From positions 3,773,001 through 3,837,000 of the forward strand of contig NZ_CP090004.1 in NCBI RefSeq assembly GCF_021390175.1: a stretch of 64,000 bases of DNA, given 5' to 3'. The position numbers and the translations under genes were made by a program. The stretch comes from Flagellimonas sp. HMM57. Lineage in GTDB: Bacteria > Bacteroidota > Bacteroidia > Flavobacteriales > Flavobacteriaceae. A model generated the notes under the pieces. It saw only the letters and a program-made list of their open reading frames with translations. It was not told the DNA's origin and made no database searches. Below are positions 15,830-25,396 of this stretch, in pieces (position 1 is the first letter of the stretch; each line of letters begins with the position of its first letter).

Positions 15830-16429
15830 TTATTTATGTCGTTCTTTTAAAATCTTTTCAATGGCACTCAACTTGTATCCTTTGGCCTGTAACAAAATCA
15901 AATAATGAAATAGCAAATCGGCACTCTCGTTCAAAAAGAGTTCATCATTATTATCTTTGGCCTCAATTACTGTTTCAACAGCTTCCTCCCCTACTTTTTG
16001 CGCTATTTTATTGATGCCTTTTCTAAACAATGAAGCTACATAACTCTTTTCATCATCCTTATTTTCTTTTCGGGAAGTTATAATATCCTCTAGTTCCGTT
16101 AGAAATCCATAAGTCTGTGAATTGTCCTCTGCCCAACAAGTATCAGTTCCCTTATGACAAGTGGGTCCTGCCGGATTCACCATTATAAGCAATGTATCAT
16201 TATCACAGTCATTTGTTATACGCACCAAATTCAAAAAGTTGCCACTTTCCTCACCTTTGGTCCAAAGTCTATTTTTGGATCTGCTAAAAAAAGTTACTTT
16301 TTTGGTCTCTATTGTCTTGTCAAATGCTTCTTGGTTCATGTACCCAAGCATCAAGACATTTTTTGTTCTTGAATCTTGAATGATGGCAGGTACCAATCCA
16401 TCTGGGTTTTTAGTAAAGTCTATTTTCAT
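15830..16429 (-). CDS. hisIE: bifunctional phosphoribosyl-AMP cyclohydrolase / phosphoribosyl-ATP diphosphatase
   Basis: Catalyses steps 2 and 3 of histidine synthesis. The N-terminal cyclohydrolase domain (about 1-105) carries MLGYMNQEA, TFFSRSKNRLWTKGEES and the metal-binding NDCDNDTLL and CHKGTDTCW motifs. The C-terminal diphosphatase domain (about 110-199) contains SYVASLF, KVGEEAVETVIEAK and ESADLLFHYLILL. The 199-residue fused form is normal in Bacteroidota. It is the last gene of the his operon; its ATG is 2 bp after the hisF stop. Confidence 0.95.
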   Translation of the reverse strand: MKIDFTKNPDGLVPAIIQDSRTKNVLMLGYMNQEAFDKTIETKKVTFFSRSKNRLWTKGEESGNFLNLVRITNDCDNDTLLIMVNPAGPTCHKGTDTCWAEDNSQTYGFLTELEDIITSRKENKDDEKSYVASLFRKGINKIAQKVGEEAVETVIEAKDNNDELFLNESADLLFHYLILLQAKGYKLSAIEKILKERHK

Positions 16430-16431
16430 TT

Positions 16432-17187
16432 TTAAAGTCTAACGGGAATTCCCTCTTTCTGTAATTGTTGCTTTAAATCCTTTATTTCGATTTCTTTAAA
16501 ATGAAAAATACTGGCTGCCAATGCAGCATCCGCTTTCCCATCAGTAAAAGTATCGGTAAAATGTGAAATGGTTCCCGCACCGCCTGATGCGATTACCGGT
16601 ATGTTCACCAAAGTTGATAATTTTGCCAAAGCTTTGTTCGCAAAACCACCTTTTGTCCCATCGTGGTTCATAGAGGTGAACAATATCTCCCCTGCTCCAC
16701 GTTCTTCAACTTCTTTTGCCCATTCGAACAAATCAATATCCGTGGGTACTTTACCACCTACCAGATGTACTTTCCAGTATCCATCTATTAGCTTCGCGTC
16801 AATAGCTACCACTATACACTGAGAACCAAATTTAGCTACCAGTTCGTTGATCAATTCAGGTCTTTTGACAGCTGAGGAATTAATAGAAACCTTATCAGCC
16901 CCATTTTGAAGTAACATATCAACGTCTTCAATGGATGAAATTCCTCCTCCTACAGTAAATGGAATATTCACTTTTTCCGCAACATGATATACTAAATCAG
17001 CTAAGGTCTTTCTTTTTTCCTCGGTTGCGGAAATATCAAGAAATACCAATTCATCCGCCCCTTTGTCCGCATATATTTGGGCAAGTTCCACTGGGTCTCC
17101 TGCATCCCTAAGGTCAACAAAATTGACGCCTTTTACGGTACGTCCATTTTTGATGTCCAAACAGGGAATTATTCGTTTTGTTAGCAC
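16432..17187 (-). CDS. hisF: imidazole glycerol phosphate synthase, cyclase subunit
   Basis: TIM-barrel cyclase that works with HisH to convert PRFAR and ammonia into imidazole glycerol phosphate and AICAR. The first catalytic Asp is in [15 protein letters not shown] (near residue 11), the second in [10 protein letters not shown] (near 130), and phosphate-binding loops are VGGGIS and ASGGAG. The start is GTG at 17185-17187 (MLTKRIIP). It is separated from hisA by a DinB-like gene and a GIY-YIG gene with flanking palindromes, an unusual break in a run that is normally contiguous. Confidence 0.95.
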
Positions 17188-17207
17188 ATTATTATAATTT
17201 AATTGAA

Positions 17208-17288
17208 CGTCATTCTGAATTCATTTCAGAACACCATTCTTGTTATCTTAAGTTTTTAGTGTGACCCTGAAACGAGTTCAGGGTGACG
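17208..17288. repeat. REPIN-like composite palindrome, unit 1 (3' side of GIY-YIG gene)
   Basis: An 81-bp unit made of two hairpin-forming half-units in inverted orientation. The left half begins CGTCATTCTGAA with arms TTCTGAA/TTCAGAA. The right half has perfect 8-bp arms ACCCTGAA/TTCAGGGT at 17264-17284 with loop ACGAG and ends GGTGACG. The outer ends CGTCA...TGACG are complementary. It lies 8 bp past the stop of the GIY-YIG gene and 21 bp before hisF. Confidence 0.85.
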
Positions 17289-17296
17289 ATATCCTT

Positions 17297-17575
17297 TTAA
17301 AAATAAAGCGTTTCCAGAGTAGGATTTTTTTCTTTAATCAAGTTTACTTTCCATTCATGTTTCCAATTTTTCAACTGTTTCTCACGAGCAATAGCTTCTT
17401 TAATATTCGTAAAAACTTCAAAATATACTAAATCCCATATATTATATTTTTTTGCAAATTTTGATTTCTGACCCGTTTGATGGTCTATAATCCTTCTAGA
17501 TAAATCTGAAGTCACACCTATATAAAATGTAGTTCTGTACTTGTTCGTCATTATATAAATAAAACTTTCTTGCAT
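17297..17575 (-). CDS. small GIY-YIG nuclease family protein
   Basis: A 92-residue single-domain GIY-YIG endonuclease-type protein. The signature reads FIYIMTN at the N-terminus and FYIGVTSDLSRRI near residue 18, with the catalytic Arg in LSRRI. HQTGQKSKFAKKY follows near 33, and the metal-binding Glu region is EAIAREKQLKNW near 60-71. Such proteins are often mislabelled UvrC. This copy sits inside the his operon between the DinB gene and hisF and is bracketed by two 81-82 bp palindromic units in the same orientation. I infer that gene and repeats form one mobile or repeat-maintaining element, analogous to RAYT-REPIN loci but with a different nuclease. Confidence 0.9.
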   Translation of the reverse strand: MQESFIYIMTNKYRTTFYIGVTSDLSRRIIDHQTGQKSKFAKKYNIWDLVYFEVFTNIKEAIAREKQLKNWKHEWKVNLIKEKNPTLETLYF

Positions 17576-17607
17576 CTCTCTATATATGTACTTTCAGTTA
17601 AGTTCTA

Positions 17608-17689
17608 CGTCATTCTGAACTTGTTTCAGAATCCCATCCCAATTATCCGTTTTCCAGTAGTGTGACCCTGAAACAAGTTCAGGGTGACG
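17608..17689. repeat. REPIN-like composite palindrome, unit 2 (5' side of GIY-YIG gene)
   Basis: Second 82-bp unit, 33 bp upstream of the GIY-YIG start, in the same orientation as unit 1 and exactly 400 bp from it. Left half: arms ATTCTGAA/TTCAGAAT (8 bp, perfect). Right half: arms ACCCTGAA/TTCAGGGT at 17665-17685. Compared as inverted copies, the halves differ mainly at TT/AA versus CC/GG, changes that keep both hairpins paired. Confidence 0.85.
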
Positions 17690-17737
17690 ATATTACTCAT
17701 TTTCCACATTGTACTTCGTACTTTTTAATTCTAACTT

Positions 17738-18250
17738 CTAATCTCTATTTTTCACATTAAGATCAATACCATCATAAAATCCCAAATCTTTGTTGTTCAA
17801 AATTTTTGTCCACAACGCAATCTGCCCTGTATGATACGACAAATGTTCCACAACATGGATAATATTGCCAATCCCAGAGAATTCGAACCCCTGTACCGAT
17901 CTTTTCCGTATTAATTCTTCATTTGTTGCTGAAACAAATACAAACTTGGCTTTTTCTACCGTTGAAATTAGTTTTTGAAATAGTTCGTCTTTGTCCAAAC
18001 CAGATGAAACCATAAATTCTTCATCCCTGTTTCTGTTATCCTCAGTACCTTGAATCGAAGAAATTCCATATTGTGTGATGTTGCCACATAGATGTAAAAT
18101 AAGGTTCCCGATACTATTTGTACTTTCATTGGGTTTTCGCCAAATTACTTCATCTGAAAGCTTATCCAAACAGATTTTAATCATTCGTAAACTTTCGTCC
18201 ATTCTGTAGTTTGCATTAAGGACTACTTCTGTTTGCCATTGTTTATACAT
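17738..18250 (-). CDS. DinB superfamily protein (DUF1572-like)
   Basis: A 170-residue four-helix-bundle protein of the DinB/YfiT superfamily. Candidate metal ligands are His in LILHLCGN (near residue 50) and the pair in [11 protein letters not shown] (near 133-137). Members bind divalent metals and some act as thiol transferases; the role here is unknown. Its ATG lies within the end of hisA (8-bp overlap), so it is translationally coupled to hisA and transcribed with the his operon. There is no obvious link to histidine synthesis. Confidence 0.8.
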
Positions 18251-19022
18251 TACCCAAAATATAGTTTTCCAACTGTTTTAAACTGATTCTATTCTCATAG
18301 ATGGCTTTTCCAATAATCGTTGCTTCACAGCCTATCTCCTTAAGCCTTGGCAGTTCTTCGAAGCTGGAAATACCACCACTTGCTATCAAGTTGACTCCAA
18401 CAACTTCTTTGTCTTCCACACCACTTCCCGTTATGGTAGTTTCAGTTTTCATTGTCTTGGACAGGATTTTTTTGTAGAGCTCAAAAGAGGGGCCTTCAAG
18501 CATTCCATCTTTGCTTATGTCGGTACAGATGATGTATTTAATACCGTTTTTTTGATACGATTGAATAAACGGAATAAGTTGCCTGTCCGATTCTTCCAAC
18601 CAGCCTGAAACTGCAACTTTTTCATCTTTGGCATCTGCTCCCAAAATGATTTTAGAAGCACCATATTTTTGCAGCCAGCCTAAAAATGTTTCTTTCTCTT
18701 TTACTGCAATGCTGCCACCAGTAACTTGATTTGCCCCACTTTCAAAGGCAATATGCAGGTCTTCATTAGTTTTTAAGCCACCTCCAAAATCAATTTTAAG
18801 ATTGGTACTTGTCGCTATGTTTTCCAATACTTTATGGTTGACTATATGTTTTGATTTAGCACCATCCAAATCTACCAAATGTAGATGCTCGATACCATGG
18901 GCTTCAAATTGTTTGGCAATTTCCAAAGGATTTTCATTATAAATCTTTTTGGTATCATAATCTCCTTTGGATAGGCGTACACACTTTCCATCTATAATAT
19001 CAATTGCTGGTATAATTCGCAT
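18243..19022 (-). CDS. hisA: ProFAR isomerase (phosphoribosylformimino-AICAR-P isomerase)
   Basis: TIM-barrel isomerase of histidine synthesis that converts ProFAR to PRFAR. Catalytic Asp in [14 protein letters not shown] (near residue 8), second Asp in [10 protein letters not shown] (near 170), phosphate loops FGGGLKT and ASGGISS. At 259 residues it is longer than the usual 240-245. The extra length falls near residues 190-209 ([20 protein letters not shown]), between the helix after [10 protein letters not shown] and the strand VNLIASGG, where related HisA proteins have only a short loop. The reading frame is intact on both sides. The gene overlaps the downstream DinB gene by 8 bp. Confidence 0.93.
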
Positions 19023-19206
19023 AATTAGTAATTAGATATGAGTATTGAGACGTGAGATTTTGTAAGCGGGAAAATTCGATATCATTAGCGTATTGAATTT
19101 CAAACTTTAAGTTTTGGTTTTGATTCTCGAATATTAGCTCTTAGTGTCAAGTTTATAGTTTTAGCTTCGGACCTCATATTTCAGACTTCGAGTTTCAGAG
19201 GTCAGA

Positions 19207-19250
19207 TTTCTGATATCTGCTTTCTGTTTTTGTTTTCTGATATCCGATTT
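19207..19250. repeat. direct repeat TTTCTGATATCYGMTTT in hisH-hisA spacer
   Basis: Two 17-bp near-identical copies, at 19207-19223 and 19234-19250, in the 244-bp spacer between hisH and hisA. The whole spacer consists of degenerate, repetitive TTTCAGA/GATATC-like text without coding capacity. Confidence 0.6.
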
Positions 19251-19266
19251 ACAACCTTATATTTCA

Positions 19267-19848
19267 TCATAAATCTAAAAAGTTTTGTAAAATCTGTGCT
19301 CCGACCTTACTACTTTTTTCAGGATGAAACTGTGTTCCATAAAAATTGTCTTTTCCAAGGGCGGCACTATAAGGCAATGCATATTCCGATGTTGCTATGG
19401 TCTCCTTTCCAATAGGCGCATAAAAGCTATGTACCAAATAGATATGTGATTTCTCGGGAATACTTTTGAATAAATCCGATTTTAAATCACTTATCTGGTT
19501 CCAGCCAATTTGAGGCACTTTTACAGATAATGGAAATCTCACAACATCCAAATCAAAGATTCCTAGACCTTTTGTGTTTCCTTCTTCGGATGCATTGCAC
19601 ATCAACTGCATTCCCAAGCATATTCCCAAAACAGGCTGCTTCAAACTGGGGATTATCTTGTCCAATCTACTGGCATTAAGCTTTTTCATTGCTGAACTTG
19701 CTTCACCAACTCCGGGAAAGATAACTTTATCCGCATTTTCAATTTCTTCGACGTCATTCGTCAAATGCGACGTGAAACCCAAGCGTTGAACGGCAAATTT
19801 AATGCTCTGGATGTTTCCTGCACCGTAGTCTATGATTACTATTTTCAT
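19267..19848 (-). CDS. hisH: imidazole glycerol phosphate synthase, glutamine amidotransferase subunit
   Basis: Class I glutaminase that supplies ammonia to HisF. The nucleophile is Cys in GICLGMQ (near residue 77); the His and Glu of the triad are in GTQFHPEKS near the C-terminus. IIDYGAGN opens the protein and FPGVGEA forms the oxyanion strand. Length (193 aa) is normal. It sits between hisB (84-bp spacer) and hisA (244-bp spacer with repeats). Confidence 0.95.
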   Translation of the reverse strand: MKIVIIDYGAGNIQSIKFAVQRLGFTSHLTNDVEEIENADKVIFPGVGEASSAMKKLNASRLDKIIPSLKQPVLGICLGMQLMCNASEEGNTKGLGIFDLDVVRFPLSVKVPQIGWNQISDLKSDLFKSIPEKSHIYLVHSFYAPIGKETIATSEYALPYSAALGKDNFYGTQFHPEKSSKVGAQILQNFLDL

Positions 19849-19932
19849 TTTTTAGTTATGAGATATTAGAATTGAGTTTTAAATGCCTTTAAATGTTCTA
19901 AATATTCACAGCTCAATACCCCTGATATGTAT

Positions 19933-21069
19933 CTAAAGCATTCCTTTAGTTGAGGGTAAAACCATTTTTTCCACATCGCGCTTTACCGCCATTTTAATCG
20001 ATTTTGCAAAAGCCTTGAATATCGCCTCAATTTTATGGTGCTCATTGGTGCCTTCCGCTTTGATGTTTAAGTTGGCCCTGGCACCGTCCGTAAACGATTT
20101 AAAAAAATGATGAAACATTTCCGTCGGCATATCCCCAACTTTTTCCCGTTTAAAATCTGCATCCCAAACCAACCAGTTACGCCCTCCAAAATCGATAGCA
20201 ACTTGCGCCAAGCAATCATCCATAGGTAAACAGAAACCATAACGTTCTATTCCAAGTTTGTCTCCCAGCGATTTGAAGAAAACTTCACCCAAGGCAATTC
20301 CTGTATCCTCAATGGTATGATGCTCGTCAACTTCTAAATCACCTTTTACTTTTATATCTAAATCCATTTGTCCATGCCGAGCCAATTGGTCCAACATATG
20401 GTCAAAAAAAGCTAATCCAGTATCTATGTTGCCCCTTCCTGTTCCATCAAGGTTTAATTTGATTTGAATATCAGTTTCGTTAGTTTTTCTTGCTATCCGA
20501 GCGACCCGATTTTCCAGTTTTAAAAACTCATATATTTTTTCCCAATCATTACTCTCTAAGGCGATATATTCATTTAAAGCTTCTTGTGCTGTAGTAATCT
20601 CATTTGTCCCCAAATTCGTCTGGTCATTTATAAAAATTCCTTTTGCCCCAAGATTTTTTGCCAACTCCACGTCCGTTAGGCGATCTCCTATTACAAACGA
20701 TCCTTTTAAATCATAAGTTTCTGAGAAATAATCAGTTAACATCCCAGTACCGGGCTTTCGTGTATTAGCATTATCCTTGGGAAATGTTCGGTCGATAAAT
20801 ACCTTATCAAAGACAACACCTTCATTTTCAAAGGATTTTAGAATGAAATTATGTACGGGCCAAAATGTTTCTTCAGGAAAAATAGCAGTACCAAGACCAT
20901 CTTGATTTGTTATCATGACCAATTCGTAATCCAGTTCCTTGGCAATTTTTCCAAGGAAGGTAAATGCTTTCGGATAAAAAATCATTTTCTCGAAGGCATC
21001 TACTTGCTCATCAGCAGTTTCTTTGATAATCGTTCCGTCCCTATCAATAAAAAGTACTTTTTTACCCAT
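19933..21069 (-). CDS. hisB: bifunctional histidinol-phosphatase / imidazoleglycerol-phosphate dehydratase
   Basis: The N-terminal HAD-type histidinol-phosphatase (about residues 1-165) starts with FIDRDGTII, whose Asp residues are nucleophile and acid; TNQDGLG and [13 protein letters not shown] complete the HAD motifs. The C-terminal dehydratase (about 185-378) has [33 protein letters not shown] and [13 protein letters not shown], the manganese ligands of the family. The fusion is typical for Bacteroidota and enterobacteria. Its ATG overlaps the hisC stop (TAATG), giving translational coupling. Confidence 0.95.
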
Positions 21070-22118
21070 TATTCAATTTCTTTTAAAATCGCTATCAATT
21101 TTCTATTCTCATTTGGTGTGCCAACCGTGAATCTTAGCGTGTTTTCGCATAAAGGTTGGTTGCTTCTGTTCCTGACCACAACTTTTAATGCCAACAACTC
21201 TTTATACCTTTTATCAGCATCGTCTACTTTGGCCAAAACAAAATTTGCATCTGAATCATAAATGTATTCCACAAAGCTTAGCTCCTTCAGTTCTTTAATC
21301 AAAATATCACGTTCAACAAGAATCTTCTTTACTTCTTCTTGTACCAATGTTTCGTCCAAAATCCGTTTTAATGCTTGGTATTGCGTGAGTTGATTTACGT
21401 TGTAAGGAGGCTTGATTTTGTTCAAAATCTCAATAATTTCTTCGGAAGCATAACAAATTCCCAGCCGAATTCCCGCCATGCCATAAGCTTTGGACATGGT
21501 TTGCGTAACAATAAGATTGGGATATCTCTCCAGAGATGCAATCCAACTTTTTTCTGATGAAAAATCCACGTAGGCTTCATCTATCACTATCAACCCATTA
21601 AAATTGTTCAACAGTTCTTCGATTTTCGCTCTCGAAAAGGCATTGCCCGTAGGGTTGTTGGGAGAGCAAATAAAGATAATCTTGGATTTACCATTTATGG
21701 CGCTTAAAATTTGAGGTACATCTGGCTCAAAATTAGATGTCAGTAGCACTTCTCTGTTTTCGATAGCATTGATTCCGCATAGCACTTTGTACATGCCATA
21801 GGTAGGTGGCAATGTGATGATATTATCCCAATTTGGTTCGCAAAAGGCCCTAAAAATCAAATCCAGTACTTCATCGCTTCCATTCCCCAACAAAATATTT
21901 TTTTCTGAAACTTGCTTCTCTTCAGCTAACAGTGTCTTTAGACTTCGTTGTTGTGGATCGGGATATCGATTTAAACCATTTTCAAAGGGGTTTTCATTCG
22001 CGTCCAAAAAAATCATTTCAGAACCATCCGAAACATATTCGTCCCTAGCAGAAGAATAGGGTTTTAAATCTTTTACGGTTTCCCTAACTAAACCTTGTAT
22101 GTTGAACGTATGTTGCAT
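21069..22118 (-). CDS. hisC: histidinol-phosphate aminotransferase
   Basis: PLP-dependent class I/II aminotransferase that converts imidazole acetol phosphate to histidinol phosphate. [18 protein letters not shown] is near residue 33, [10 protein letters not shown] near 150, IDEAYVDF near 176 and the PLP lysine is in [10 protein letters not shown] near 210; the Arg of GIRLGI follows. Length (349 aa) is normal. The stop codon overlaps the hisB start; hisD is 39 bp upstream. Confidence 0.94.
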
Positions 22119-22157
22119 TTTATAAAGACCTCGACCAAAAGGCTTGACTTGACATTA

Positions 22158-23444
22158 TTAATTCTTTACACTATTTAATCGAAGCGTCACGGCATTTTTA
22201 TGTGCTTGTAATCCTTCCGCTTCTGCCATCAGTTCAATAGCGTTACCAATACCTAAAATACCTTCTTTTGTTATTTTTTGAAAGGTCATACTCTTCATGA
22301 AACTATCTAAATTTACGCCACTATACTGCTTGGCATATCCGTTAGTTGGTAAGGTATGATTGGTTCCAGAAGCATAATCGCCCGCACTTTCCGGAGTGTA
22401 ATTTCCAATAAAAACCGAACCTGCATTTATCGTATTCTGGATATAAAAATCTTCATCGGCAACACAGACGATATAATGTTCTGGTGCATATTCATTGATA
22501 ATATCGACCGCTACTTGATTGTTTTCAACTAAAATAAGCCTACTGTTTTCAATCGCCTTTTTTGCAATCGCCTTGCGGGGCAGTTGCTCTAGTTGTATGT
22601 CAATCTCCTTTGCAACAGCATCCAGTAACCGTTCTGATGTAGAGACCAAAACAACTTGACTATCCATGCCATGCTCTGCTTGACTCAATAAATCAGAAGC
22701 CACAAAAGCCGCATTGGCCGTATCATCGGCCACTACTAATAATTCACTTGGACCAGCAGGCATATCGATTGCTATTCCATATTTAGTTGCCAGCTGTTTG
22801 GCCACCGTGACATACTGATTACCCGGACCAAATATTTTATACACTTTGGGAATAGATGCTGTACCAAATGTCATTCCGGCAATAGCTTGTATTCCGCCTA
22901 CTTTGAAGATTTGGGTTACACCGCATAACTGTGCCGTATATAAAATTGCCGGATTTACTTCTCCTTTACTGTTTGGTGGCGTACACAATACAATTTCTTC
23001 GCAACCTGCAATTTTCGCAGGAACAGCAAGCATTAAAATCGTAGAGAACAAAGGGGCTGTACCCCCCGGAATATACAATCCAACTTTTTGTATAGGCTTT
23101 TTTTCCTGCCAACATAAAACTCCTGGCATCGTTTCAAGTTTAGTTTTCCCGGTTTTCTGAGCTAAATGAAACTTTTCTATATTGCCTTTTGCCAGAGAAA
23201 TGGCTTGTTTTAAATCTTCTGAAACTAGAACAGTAGCTTCAAGTACTTCCTGCTCTGAAACTTTAAAGTTTGAAATGGTAACGCCATCAAACTTTTGTGT
23301 GTATGTTCTTAGCGTTGTATCTCCTTCATTTTGAACCTTTTCAAAAACCTCCTTCACGATCGGTTCAACCTCATCAAATGTCTGTGTGGGCCTTGACAGG
23401 ATTTTAGACCATTCTGATTTATTTGGATTTTTATACTTTTTCAT
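22158..23444 (-). CDS. hisD: histidinol dehydrogenase
   Basis: Zinc enzyme that oxidises histidinol to histidine in two NAD-dependent steps. Recognised by GLYIPGGTAPLFST (near 120), VGGIQAIAGM, KIFGPGNQYVTVAKQL, the DMPAGPSELLV segment, LLSQAEHGMDSQ (Gln/His metal ligands) and APEHYIV near 320, and a C-terminal YASGTNHTLPT. Length (428 aa) is normal. Second gene of the operon after hisG. Confidence 0.95.
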   Translation of the reverse strand: MKKYKNPNKSEWSKILSRPTQTFDEVEPIVKEVFEKVQNEGDTTLRTYTQKFDGVTISNFKVSEQEVLEATVLVSEDLKQAISLAKGNIEKFHLAQKTGKTKLETMPGVLCWQEKKPIQKVGLYIPGGTAPLFSTILMLAVPAKIAGCEEIVLCTPPNSKGEVNPAILYTAQLCGVTQIFKVGGIQAIAGMTFGTASIPKVYKIFGPGNQYVTVAKQLATKYGIAIDMPAGPSELLVVADDTANAAFVASDLLSQAEHGMDSQVVLVSTSERLLDAVAKEIDIQLEQLPRKAIAKKAIENSRLILVENNQVAVDIINEYAPEHYIVCVADEDFYIQNTINAGSVFIGNYTPESAGDYASGTNHTLPTNGYAKQYSGVNLDSFMKSMTFQKITKEGILGIGNAIELMAEAEGLQAHKNAVTLRLNSVKN

Positions 23445-23523: not shown

Positions 23524-24381
23524 TTAAATTACCATTTTTTCGATAGGACATACCAAGATGCCTTCTGCACCAGCTTCTTTCAACTCATCGATAACCTCCC
23601 AAAAAGTGTCTTTATTGAGTACTGTGTGTACTGAACTCCATCCCTCTTCTGCCAAAGGAAGTACCGTAGGGCTTCGCATACCTGGCAATATTGAAATGAT
23701 TTCTTCTAACTTATCATTTGGAGCGTTTAGCAATACATATTTATTCTTTCTTGCCTGCAGCACGGATTTAATACGAAACTGTAGCTTTTCGAGAATAGCT
23801 GTACGTTCTGCAGAGATTTTTGGGGAAACTGCCAAGACAGCTTCACTTTTCAATAGCACTTCGACCTCTTTCAAATTGTTTTTGAACAACGTACTACCGC
23901 TGGAAACAATATCGCAGATACCATCGGCCAGTCCAATATTTGGAGCTATTTCTACAGACCCGTTAATGATGTGAAGGTCGACCGTGACCCCCTTGGAATT
24001 TAAATAGTCCAATACCGTGTTGGGATACGAAGTGGCTATACGCTTGCCTTCAAAATCTTTGACCGAATCGTATTTAGTTGACTTTGGTACCGCTAAAGAG
24101 ACCCTGCACTTTGAAAAACCAAGCTTTTCAGCTATTGATATATCCTTTCCCTTTTCTATCAATACATTTTCTCCAAGTACTGCGATGTCAACAACGCCAT
24201 CCCTTAGATACTGGGGAATATCCCCGTTCCGGAGATAAAGAACTTCCATTGGAAAATTACGGGCCGTAGCTTTGAGTTGGTCCTTACCGTTGTCGATGGA
24301 AATACCACAATCCTTTAAAATTTTTAGGGAGTCCTGATTAAGACGTCCACTCTTTTGTACAGCAATTCTAATTCTAGTCAT
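23524..24381 (-). CDS. hisG: ATP phosphoribosyltransferase, long form
   Basis: First committed enzyme of histidine synthesis: joins ATP and PRPP. I start at the ATG at 24381 (MTRIRIAVQKSGRL), where family homology begins; an in-frame ATG at 24423 would lie inside the terminator stem and is rejected. FPMEVLYLRNGDIPQYL, ADGICDIVSSGSTL (PRPP loop) and a C-terminal ACT-like regulatory domain (from about 215, GMRSPTVLPL) mark the long HisG form, which needs no HisZ. Length 285 aa. Transcription is preceded by a leader peptide and attenuator at 24421-24570. Confidence 0.95.
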   Translation of the reverse strand: MTRIRIAVQKSGRLNQDSLKILKDCGISIDNGKDQLKATARNFPMEVLYLRNGDIPQYLRDGVVDIAVLGENVLIEKGKDISIAEKLGFSKCRVSLAVPKSTKYDSVKDFEGKRIATSYPNTVLDYLNSKGVTVDLHIINGSVEIAPNIGLADGICDIVSSGSTLFKNNLKEVEVLLKSEAVLAVSPKISAERTAILEKLQFRIKSVLQARKNKYVLLNAPNDKLEEIISILPGMRSPTVLPLAEEGWSSVHTVLNKDTFWEVIDELKEAGAEGILVCPIEKMVI

Positions 24382-24420
24382 TATTTTAAATTTTGTTTGG
24401 AAACCAAACAGGCACAAAAA

Positions 24421-24450
24421 CAAAACCCGTTTGATTTCTCAAACGGGTTT
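24421..24450 (-). terminator. his operon attenuator (terminator hairpin)
   Basis: On the transcribed strand a perfect 12-bp stem AAACCCGTTTGA/TCAAACGGGTTT (24450-24423) closes on a GAAA tetraloop and runs into a U-rich tract (TTTTGTTTTTG). It lies 42 bp upstream of hisG and about 30 bp after the leader-peptide stop. The 5' arm (24447-24438, CCCGUUUGAG) can instead pair with CUCAAGCGAG at 24494-24485 (9 of 10 positions, one G-U), an antiterminator that excludes the terminator. Confidence 0.9.
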
Positions 24451-24480
24451 AGAATATATTTTAAAAACAACAATACATTT

Positions 24481-24534
24481 CTATCTCGCTTGAGTGCAAG
24501 TATAAAAATGATGATGTGTGTTCTTGTTTTTCAT
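24481..24534 (-). CDS. hisL: his operon leader peptide
   Basis: A 17-codon open frame encoding MKNKNTHHHFYTCTQAR, with three consecutive His codons at 24516-24508. It lies between a TAnnTTTG promoter box and the terminator hairpin before hisG. The antiterminator segment (24494-24485) begins 13 nt after the last His codon. A ribosome stalled for charged tRNA-His would leave it free, while a ribosome reaching the TAG stop (24481-24483) would cover it. This is the classical attenuation arrangement of the his operon known from enterobacteria. The ORF is too short for routine gene calling. Evidence is positional and structural; expression is inferred. Confidence 0.88.
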   Translation of the reverse strand: MKNKNTHHHFYTCTQAR

Positions 24535-24542
24535 TACGATAT

Positions 24543-24570
24543 CAAATGTAAAATTTATTTTTATATCAAA
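24543..24570 (-). promoter_or_regulatory. his operon promoter (Bacteroidota type)
   Basis: On the minus strand TACATTTG at 24550-24543 fits the -7 consensus TAnnTTTG, with TTTG at 24570-24567 as the -33 element; the 16-bp spacer is slightly short. The predicted start site falls a few bases before the leader-peptide ATG (24534). Confidence 0.7.
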
Positions 24571-24580
24571 AAAGGTTTAT

Positions 24581-25396
24581 TTAGTTATTTCCCAAAATCA
24601 AGGGCAAACCTGCGTCGCCAGAACCAACTACCACAACCTTGGCATTTGGCGACTGGGAAAGCTTTAGTGTTGCCTCAATACCTTTGTCCTGTAATATTTT
24701 ATCTGTCAAGGATGCGCTCAATATACGGTTTGCATCTGCTTTACCCTGAGCTTCTATTCGCTGCTTTTCTGCTTCTTTTTGAGCAGTTACCAACCTAAAC
24801 TCATATTCCAATGATTCCTGTTCCTGTTTTAACTTTCTTTCGATTGCTTCTTTAATTGTTGGTGGGAGGGTCACATCACGAACCAATATTTCATTGAGCT
24901 GTATGTATTGGTCGTCCACAATTTTTTTGGTCTCCTCGTAAATTTCGTTTTGTATGGCATCCCGTTTACTGGAATATAATTGTTCCGGTGTATAACGTCC
25001 TACAACAGACCTGGCCGCTGAACGAATCGCCGGGAGCAAGATACGATCTTTATACTGTTCACTTTTTTCCTGATGAAGTCTTCCAAGATCTCCATACTTA
25101 GGCTGAAACCATGTGGATGCCTCTAACTGGATATCAAGTCCATTACTTGAAAGCACTTTCATTTTTTCATATACCTCTTGTTGCCGTACTTCGTAAATAT
25201 ATACCCTGTTCCAAGGCGCAACAATATGAAAACCTTCCCCCAAAGGTGGTTTTTCGGTTACCACACCACCTCCAAATGTTTTGTACAATACTCCAGCTTC
25301 TCCAGAACCTATGGTCACGGCCGACTTTGAAATTAAAATAATTAAAACAATAATGACCGCTATTACAGGTAAAGCAATCTTAGGTAATCTATCCAT
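24581..25396 (-). CDS. prohibitin/SPFH family membrane protein
   Basis: A 271-residue prohibitin-like protein: one N-terminal membrane helix (about 7-25), then the SPFH/band-7 domain (VTIGSGEAGVLYKTFGGG to DVTLPPTIKEAIERKL) and a long charged coiled coil (EQESLEYEFRLVTAQKEAEKQRIEAQGKA). Members form large ring scaffolds in the inner membrane and often modulate FtsH-type proteases. Third gene of a fabG-VWA-prohibitin run with gaps of 6 and 10 bp; it ends about 30 bp before the his promoter on the same strand. Confidence 0.88.
   Translation of the reverse strand: MDRLPKIALPVIAVIIVLIILISKSAVTIGSGEAGVLYKTFGGGVVTEKPPLGEGFHIVAPWNRVYIYEVRQQEVYEKMKVLSSNGLDIQLEASTWFQPKYGDLGRLHQEKSEQYKDRILLPAIRSAARSVVGRYTPEQLYSSKRDAIQNEIYEETKKIVDDQYIQLNEILVRDVTLPPTIKEAIERKLKQEQESLEYEFRLVTAQKEAEKQRIEAQGKADANRILSASLTDKILQDKGIEATLKLSQSPNAKVVVVGSGDAGLPLILGNN

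Follow-up and report, generated by a model that had tools for sequence, protein, structure and literature searches.

We found that the element upstream of hisG in the window (the whole 64,000-nt stretch of DNA that was analysed) very probably controls the his operon through ribosome-mediated transcription attenuation. The arrangement to which a preliminary description had drawn attention at 24421-24570 is real and was confirmed, and its interpretation as a his attenuator is supported. Judged from its sequence and its relatives, the element appears to be a well-supported his attenuator of a known kind, which has an unusually clear evolutionary record and which would respond to the supply of charged histidyl-tRNA.

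All parts of the element lie on the minus strand. A 17-codon leader ORF with three consecutive His codons, claimed in the preliminary description, was found at 24534-24481 (MKNKNTHHHFYTCTQAR followed by TAG, with the ATG at 24534; sequence and conservation), and the run CAT CAT CAT within it (CATCATCAT, 24508-24516) provides the putative control codons. After the last His codon, 13 nt intervene before segment 2, the antiterminator strand CUCAAGCGAG (CTCAAGCGAG, 24485-24494; duplex prediction and covariation), which occupies nucleotides 14-23 and is located within the ORF directly before the stop codon (nucleotides 25-27). Segment 1, CUUGC (24496-24500, nucleotides 8-12 after the last His codon), has the GCGAG of segment 2 as its partner, as indicated by sequence and covariation. 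The terminator consists of 12 bp with a GAAA loop, and covariation supports both of its arms. Its 5' arm AAACCCGTTTGA (segment 3, 24439-24450) is common to the antiterminator, and its 3' arm TCAAACGGGTTT (24434-24423) together with the U-rich tail TGTTTTTG forms segment 4 (24415-24434). Between the leader stop and the terminator, enclosed by the antiterminator, a weak AU-rich hairpin is predicted from the fold at 24454-24478, with modest covariation support. Pairing of CUCAAGCGAG with CCCGUUUGAG is possible at 9 of 10 positions, with 8 contiguous pairs in the duplex prediction; this pairing, the 13-nt interval and the GAAA-capped terminator running into U (24450-24423 plus the tail) are as they had been described. 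The RNA from the last His codon to the tail has a folding energy of -27.6 kcal/mol (z = -5.64), which none of 200 dinucleotide shuffles reached, and the motif CAAGCGAG-N20..45-CCCGTTTGA, in which the antiterminator segment is followed by the terminator arm, has a single occurrence in the 4.16 Mb genome.

The gene behind the element is hisG (ATP phosphoribosyltransferase, 23524-24381, minus strand; NCBIfam TIGR00070, 183.4 bits), the first gene of the operon, and the remaining his cluster extends over 15830-23444 on the same strand (hisD, hisC, bifunctional hisB, hisH, hisA, a 170-aa ORF, hisF and hisIE). The 170-aa ORF (17738-18250) overlaps the end of hisA by 8 nt, has no NCBIfam match and resembles a DinB-type protein. 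Upstream of the leader, at 24581-25396, there is an ORF with weak HflC/HflK matches.

The conservation of the leader was analyzed in 123 Flavobacteriaceae hisG upstream regions, one per genus, namely that of the window and those of 122 further genomes out of 148 searched (the remaining genomes gave no hisG match at 1e-30 and were left out). A check for relatives that keep hisG without the His codons or the terminator left the preliminary interpretation standing: 118 of the 123 loci have a His-rich leader ORF before hisG under a uniform rule, which asked for an ORF of 6 to 40 codons with an ATG or GTG start and three His in a stretch of five residues, lying within 300 nt. The terminator was detected by script in 119 loci, and a leader with at least two consecutive His codons near the terminator in 115. 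Among the eight exceptions, L154 is truncated by the contig end, three (L166, L189 and L204) have a leader and an imperfect terminator by eye, and four (L180, L183, L184 and L201) have dispersed His codons, also by eye. The His codons of the 115 leaders are 440 CAT and 40 CAC. Additionally, among the hisG loci of the best 80 of 529 relatives, 79 have an ATG-started ORF containing HH in the 400 nt upstream, and the contig of the 80th (L074) includes just 180 nt upstream of the gene. Covariance-model matches (E-value 0.01 or better) were obtained in at least 137 of 149 Flavobacteriaceae genomes, a number that is unfit as a count of attenuators because three of the hits (L311, L313 and L314) look by eye like plain terminators without a leader.

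Outside the family, the same rule found a His-rich leader before hisG in 43 of 48 loci of other Bacteroidia families (23 of 27 families), in 14 of 25 loci from other classes and in 0 of 20 loci from deeper branches (HisG 29-34% identical; 500 nt of sequence instead of 300 nt). The loci came from a phylum sample (40 loci hand-picked from 103 matches in a draw of 118 genomes), a class sample (34 of 43 matching genomes in a draw of 90, the other 9 being already in the sample) and a deep sample (20 loci picked from the rest of the phylum draw). L205, one of the 40, is a Flavobacteriaceae locus and was not counted in the uniform-rule sets; it has an HHH leader too. No locus in any set passed the rule on the reverse strand, and shuffled sequence gave a mean of 0.1-0.4 loci per set. 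When other amino acids were put in the place of His, the maximum was 21 of 123 loci in Flavobacteriaceae and 7 of 48 in Bacteroidia, for Leu in both cases. Most of the Bacteroidia loci sampled thus appear to carry a His-leader switch.

The 115 Flavobacteriaceae leaders were aligned, the eight exceptions being excluded, and both the terminator and the antiterminator were found to covary. In the terminator helix, 98.2% of cells are paired and 7 pairs (34 cells) changed on both sides, while slid controls reached at most 57.1%; such cell counts, here and below, are inflated by shared descent, and related sequences can exceed every shuffle. The antiterminator and the 1:2 helices were named by hand first and then counted. 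For the antiterminator, counted over its 8 contiguous pairs with the constant A-C mismatch and the pair beyond left out, 95.8% of cells are paired and 4 pairs (14 cells) changed on both sides (slid maximum 50.2%). In L146 one change runs through all three strands (CCCAUCUGA...UCAGAUGGG with the leader UCAGGUGAG). RNAalifold recovered only the terminator from this alignment, which is the expected outcome because the folds are mutually exclusive.

A third structure, which also covaries in the 115 leaders, was added to the model of the preliminary description, namely a 1:2 hairpin inside the ORF that would hide the antiterminator strand. In this hairpin (CUUGC with GCGAG), 83.2% of cells are paired and 35 changed on both sides (slid maximum 50.1%), and the number of pairs changed on both sides was reached by 143 of 500 shuffles. 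Its outer pair is C-G in 59 and U-A in 29 of the 115 sequences; by eye the U-A form occurs mostly in part of Flavobacteriaceae, and the cell count for this hairpin is therefore inflated by shared descent. The AU-rich hairpin between the leader stop and the terminator is the weak part of the model and weakly supported as a conserved structure (79.9% of cells paired and 27 changed on both sides, slid controls giving 40 and 34; the number of such pairs was reached by 139 of 500 shuffles).

The promoter was also considered in these relatives. In the window, a putative Bacteroidota promoter (24543-24571, minus strand; assigned from sequence) is made up of TTTTTTG at 24571-24565 and the TAnnTTTG box TACATTTG at 24550-24543, 8 nt before the leader ATG. 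The box does stand where the preliminary description had put its TAnnTTTG promoter, but the support for it is softer than was claimed there: 41 of 115 loci have a strict box at most 45 nt from the leader start, where shuffles would give 3.45. The relaxed form TAnnTTTR was found within the same distance in 62 loci (17.7 expected). In the 41 strict-box loci the box lies a median of 17 nt before the ATG, so the 8-nt spacing of the window is not the family rule. Support for a putative promoter before the leader ORF is moderate.

The elements, their spacing, their conservation and their covariation suggest a mechanism in which the start site, the translation of the leader, the stalling and the histidine dependence of read-through are the presumed steps. 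RNA polymerase would start at the TAnnTTTG promoter, and the leader peptide would be translated at once. With ample charged histidyl-tRNA, the ribosome would reach the stop codon and cover segment 2, so that segments 3 and 4 could form the terminator and transcription would stop before hisG. With scarce charged histidyl-tRNA, the ribosome would stall on the His codons, cover segment 1 and free segment 2, which could pair with segment 3 before segment 4 is made, and the polymerase would read into the operon. In the absence of translation, segment 1 would pair with segment 2 and hide it, and the terminator would form. A ribosome footprint reaches about 11-12 nt beyond the A-site codon, and with this size the geometry fits, in that a ribosome on the control codons frees segment 2 and a ribosome at the stop masks it. 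When the first 11 nt after the His codons are hidden, the full leader still folds into the terminator (-22.8 kcal/mol), and the antiterminator is the predicted fold (-15.4 kcal/mol) solely while segment 4 is unmade. Antitermination would therefore have to be kinetic, because the terminator is the more stable fold even with 11 nt hidden; in known attenuators, too, the decision is held to be made in time.

In other families the terminators are altogether different, for example of the CCCCGGC/GCCGGGG and GGCUUACC/GGUAAGCC types, and the leaders tend to carry a strand matching their own terminator. For 20 hand-picked loci, none of 20000 reassignments attained the summed duplex energy of the leaders with their own terminator arms; in 9 of the 20 loci the own leader had rank 1, and 16 of the 20 beat a mononucleotide shuffle at 0.05. 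In a larger test by rule, 33 of 75 loci were dropped (27 without a scripted terminator and 6 without a leader near the terminator), and the 42 loci kept, from many families, gave an energy sum of -585.3 against a permutation mean of -418.2 (sd 17.2; 0 of 20000 permutations reach it). Among the dropped loci, the predicted folds of L274, L281 and L292 contain a terminator interrupted by an internal loop, and in L301 a terminator is visible by eye; the script missed all of these. The own leader came first in only 4 of the 42 loci, because many families share GGCUUACC-type terminators, and 29 of the 42 beat a mononucleotide shuffle at 0.05. It ranked 17th to 42nd in L284, L286, L282, L287, L289 and L293, the last-ranked of which (L293) has a supposed leader without three clustered His. 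Support at single loci is uneven. Counted from the last His codon, pairing is predicted to begin at 11-18 nt in 31 of the 42 loci (median 14.5, range 0 to 25). Leader-peptide His attenuation is probably ancestral to the class Bacteroidia and probably reaches several sister classes, and its hairpins would have been rewritten repeatedly along with the leader, with the distance from the last His codon to the antiterminator staying near 14 nt.

Further amino-acid leaders were identified in the same genome. A leader with WWW (MNIRTTNTWWWINLRRMS) and a terminator lie before the trp genes and match the Rfam family Bacteroid-trp (52.2 bits, cut-off 49). Between this terminator and the chorismate-binding (trpE-like) gene there is a small ORF of some 95 codons. 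A Phe-rich leader (MTNTYFWNGFYFYFFFKRSKGLF, FYFYFFF; locus L249) with a terminator is found directly before pheA, and a GTG-started leader rich in Leu, Ile and Val (VKTKNLINSVVINIPYLE; locus L248) has its terminator 194 nt before ilvD. In this one genome, the cognate codons of the trp, pheA and ilvD leaders seem to follow the pathway.

Three other explanations were weighed against histidine-specific transcription attenuation. The hairpin could be the terminator of the upstream HflC-like gene, with the His codons there by chance, and an HflC-like gene does occur within 3 kb upstream in 75 of the 80 named loci, so the two are often kept together. However, L071, L078 and L079 (3 kb of upstream sequence) and L076 (0.7 kb) give no match to this gene, yet have the leader and the terminator, for which reason a terminator of the upstream gene was rejected as the explanation; moreover, the His-rich ORF persists in families whose terminators are unrelated, and leaders fit the terminators of their own loci, which makes this origin extremely improbable. 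The terminator might instead be worked by a T-box, a riboswitch, an RNA-binding protein or some other sensor, with the peptide being incidental, since T-boxes or the HisR repressor are used for his genes in other phyla, according to the account in PMC9413887. Against this, no Rfam family reached its gathering score anywhere in the 64,000-nt window, and a permissive Rfam search of 24370-24620 gave 20 hits, none of them near the gathering score (lowest E-value 0.0056, with 25.4 of 56 bits). There would also be no reason under such a sensor for an in-frame His run to be kept with exchange of CAT and CAC and with similar antiterminator spacing, and we consider it hardly credible.

The leader might, finally, sense translation in general, or act on translation or re-initiation. 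L208, L222 and L226 have a His leader with a hairpin at or adjoining the leader stop and no scripted GC-rich U-tailed terminator, and other readouts may therefore exist in the phylum. For the window this is nevertheless very unlikely, as a U-tailed terminator is present in 119 of 123 Flavobacteriaceae loci and covaries with the antiterminator, and as the codons of the His, Trp, Phe and branched-chain leaders in this genome match their pathways.

Attenuators in this phylum may have been predicted by Lopatovskaya et al. in 2010. Compared with the gamma-proteobacterial His leader (RF00514), the window has three His codons, its antiterminator strand is inside the ORF, and its additional hairpin, located ahead of the terminator, is clear of both switching segments. 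Enterobacterial his leaders have a longer His run. RF00514 was not at the gathering threshold in the window, nor among the 20 permissive hits in 24370-24620. The two are alike in that, before the his operon, a tandem-His leader peptide is combined with an antiterminator and a terminator that exclude each other (PMC9413887), and leader-peptide attenuation of his operons is described there as established in E. coli and its relatives and predicted in some Firmicutes. Like the window, the Firmicutes candidates have three to five consecutive His codons before candidate alternative hairpins, but they belong to another phylum and, in the account given, to few lineages (six B. cereus group, five Eubacteriales and six Erysipelotrichales species; PMC9413887). 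The authors of a 2010 study knew leader-peptide systems from Proteobacteria and Actinobacteria only, until their own case in Bacillus (PMC2965389).

Within Bacteroidota, the Bacteroid-trp leader RF01692 is listed in PMC2864571 and is described as attenuator-like for F. psychrophilum (PMC6414381). It shares the phylum and the principle with the his element and is also present in this genome (the WWW leader), but it is a Trp rather than a His leader, and no Rfam family matches the his leader at the gathering score. Short ORFs that recall leader peptides have been noted in long 5' UTRs of Bacteroides thetaiotaomicron (PMC7366714). A 2021 study reported a structured 5' element before hisG in Flavobacterium psychrophilum that also occurs in other genera of Flavobacteriaceae, together with strong indications of attenuation at amino-acid operons (PMC9723704); this element precedes the same gene in the same family as that of the window, so that the element as such is in print for Flavobacteriaceae. 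In the portions of that study covered here, neither a leader peptide nor an antiterminator nor covariation is given for hisG, and nothing extends beyond the family; its supplement may hold more. The peptide, the three-way covariation and the class-wide spread were not found in the part of the literature that was covered, and no priority is claimed.

Such attenuators work only if transcription and translation are tightly coupled, and coupling in Bacteroidota thereby becomes testable. If leader-peptide His attenuation is indeed ancestral to the class, the first ribosome would stay close behind RNA polymerase in these bacteria, among them Flavobacteriaceae, which have mRNAs devoid of Shine-Dalgarno sequences (PMC9723704). 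In the window and close relatives, transcription would then begin only a few nucleotides ahead of the leader start codon. The proposed mechanism would provide a precise regulatory model with named, mutable parts for the his operon of a large and little-studied group, and the unrelated terminators with similar His-codon spacing could serve as a natural measure of the reach of a stalled ribosome. The leader alignment could also yield an Rfam entry.

Several loci show other arrangements. L208, L213, L222, L223 and L226 (Bacteroidia) have a His-rich leader with a hairpin over or adjoining the leader stop and no scripted GC-rich U-tailed terminator nearby, and possibly use a different readout. L232, L233, L235 and L237 have long His-rich leaders, three of the four GTG-started (e.g., VNSTLHHIPSIHHDRHHGHHHVH), with no scripted terminator nearby before hisG. 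In genome G027, which gave no hisG match in the genome search, a complete HHHH his leader and terminator (L308) precede a short ORF that by eye has a HisG-like start and a HisIE-like end (MKKLKIAVQKSG...VEKILRQRHKLE), as if the operon between the start of hisG and the end of hisIE had been deleted. In genome G138, the his leader and terminator occur a second time (L307, about 1470-1600; 92.3 bits to the covariance model). There is no hisG in the roughly 400 nt from this copy to the contig end, and the ORF starting there resembles an IS200-type transposase.
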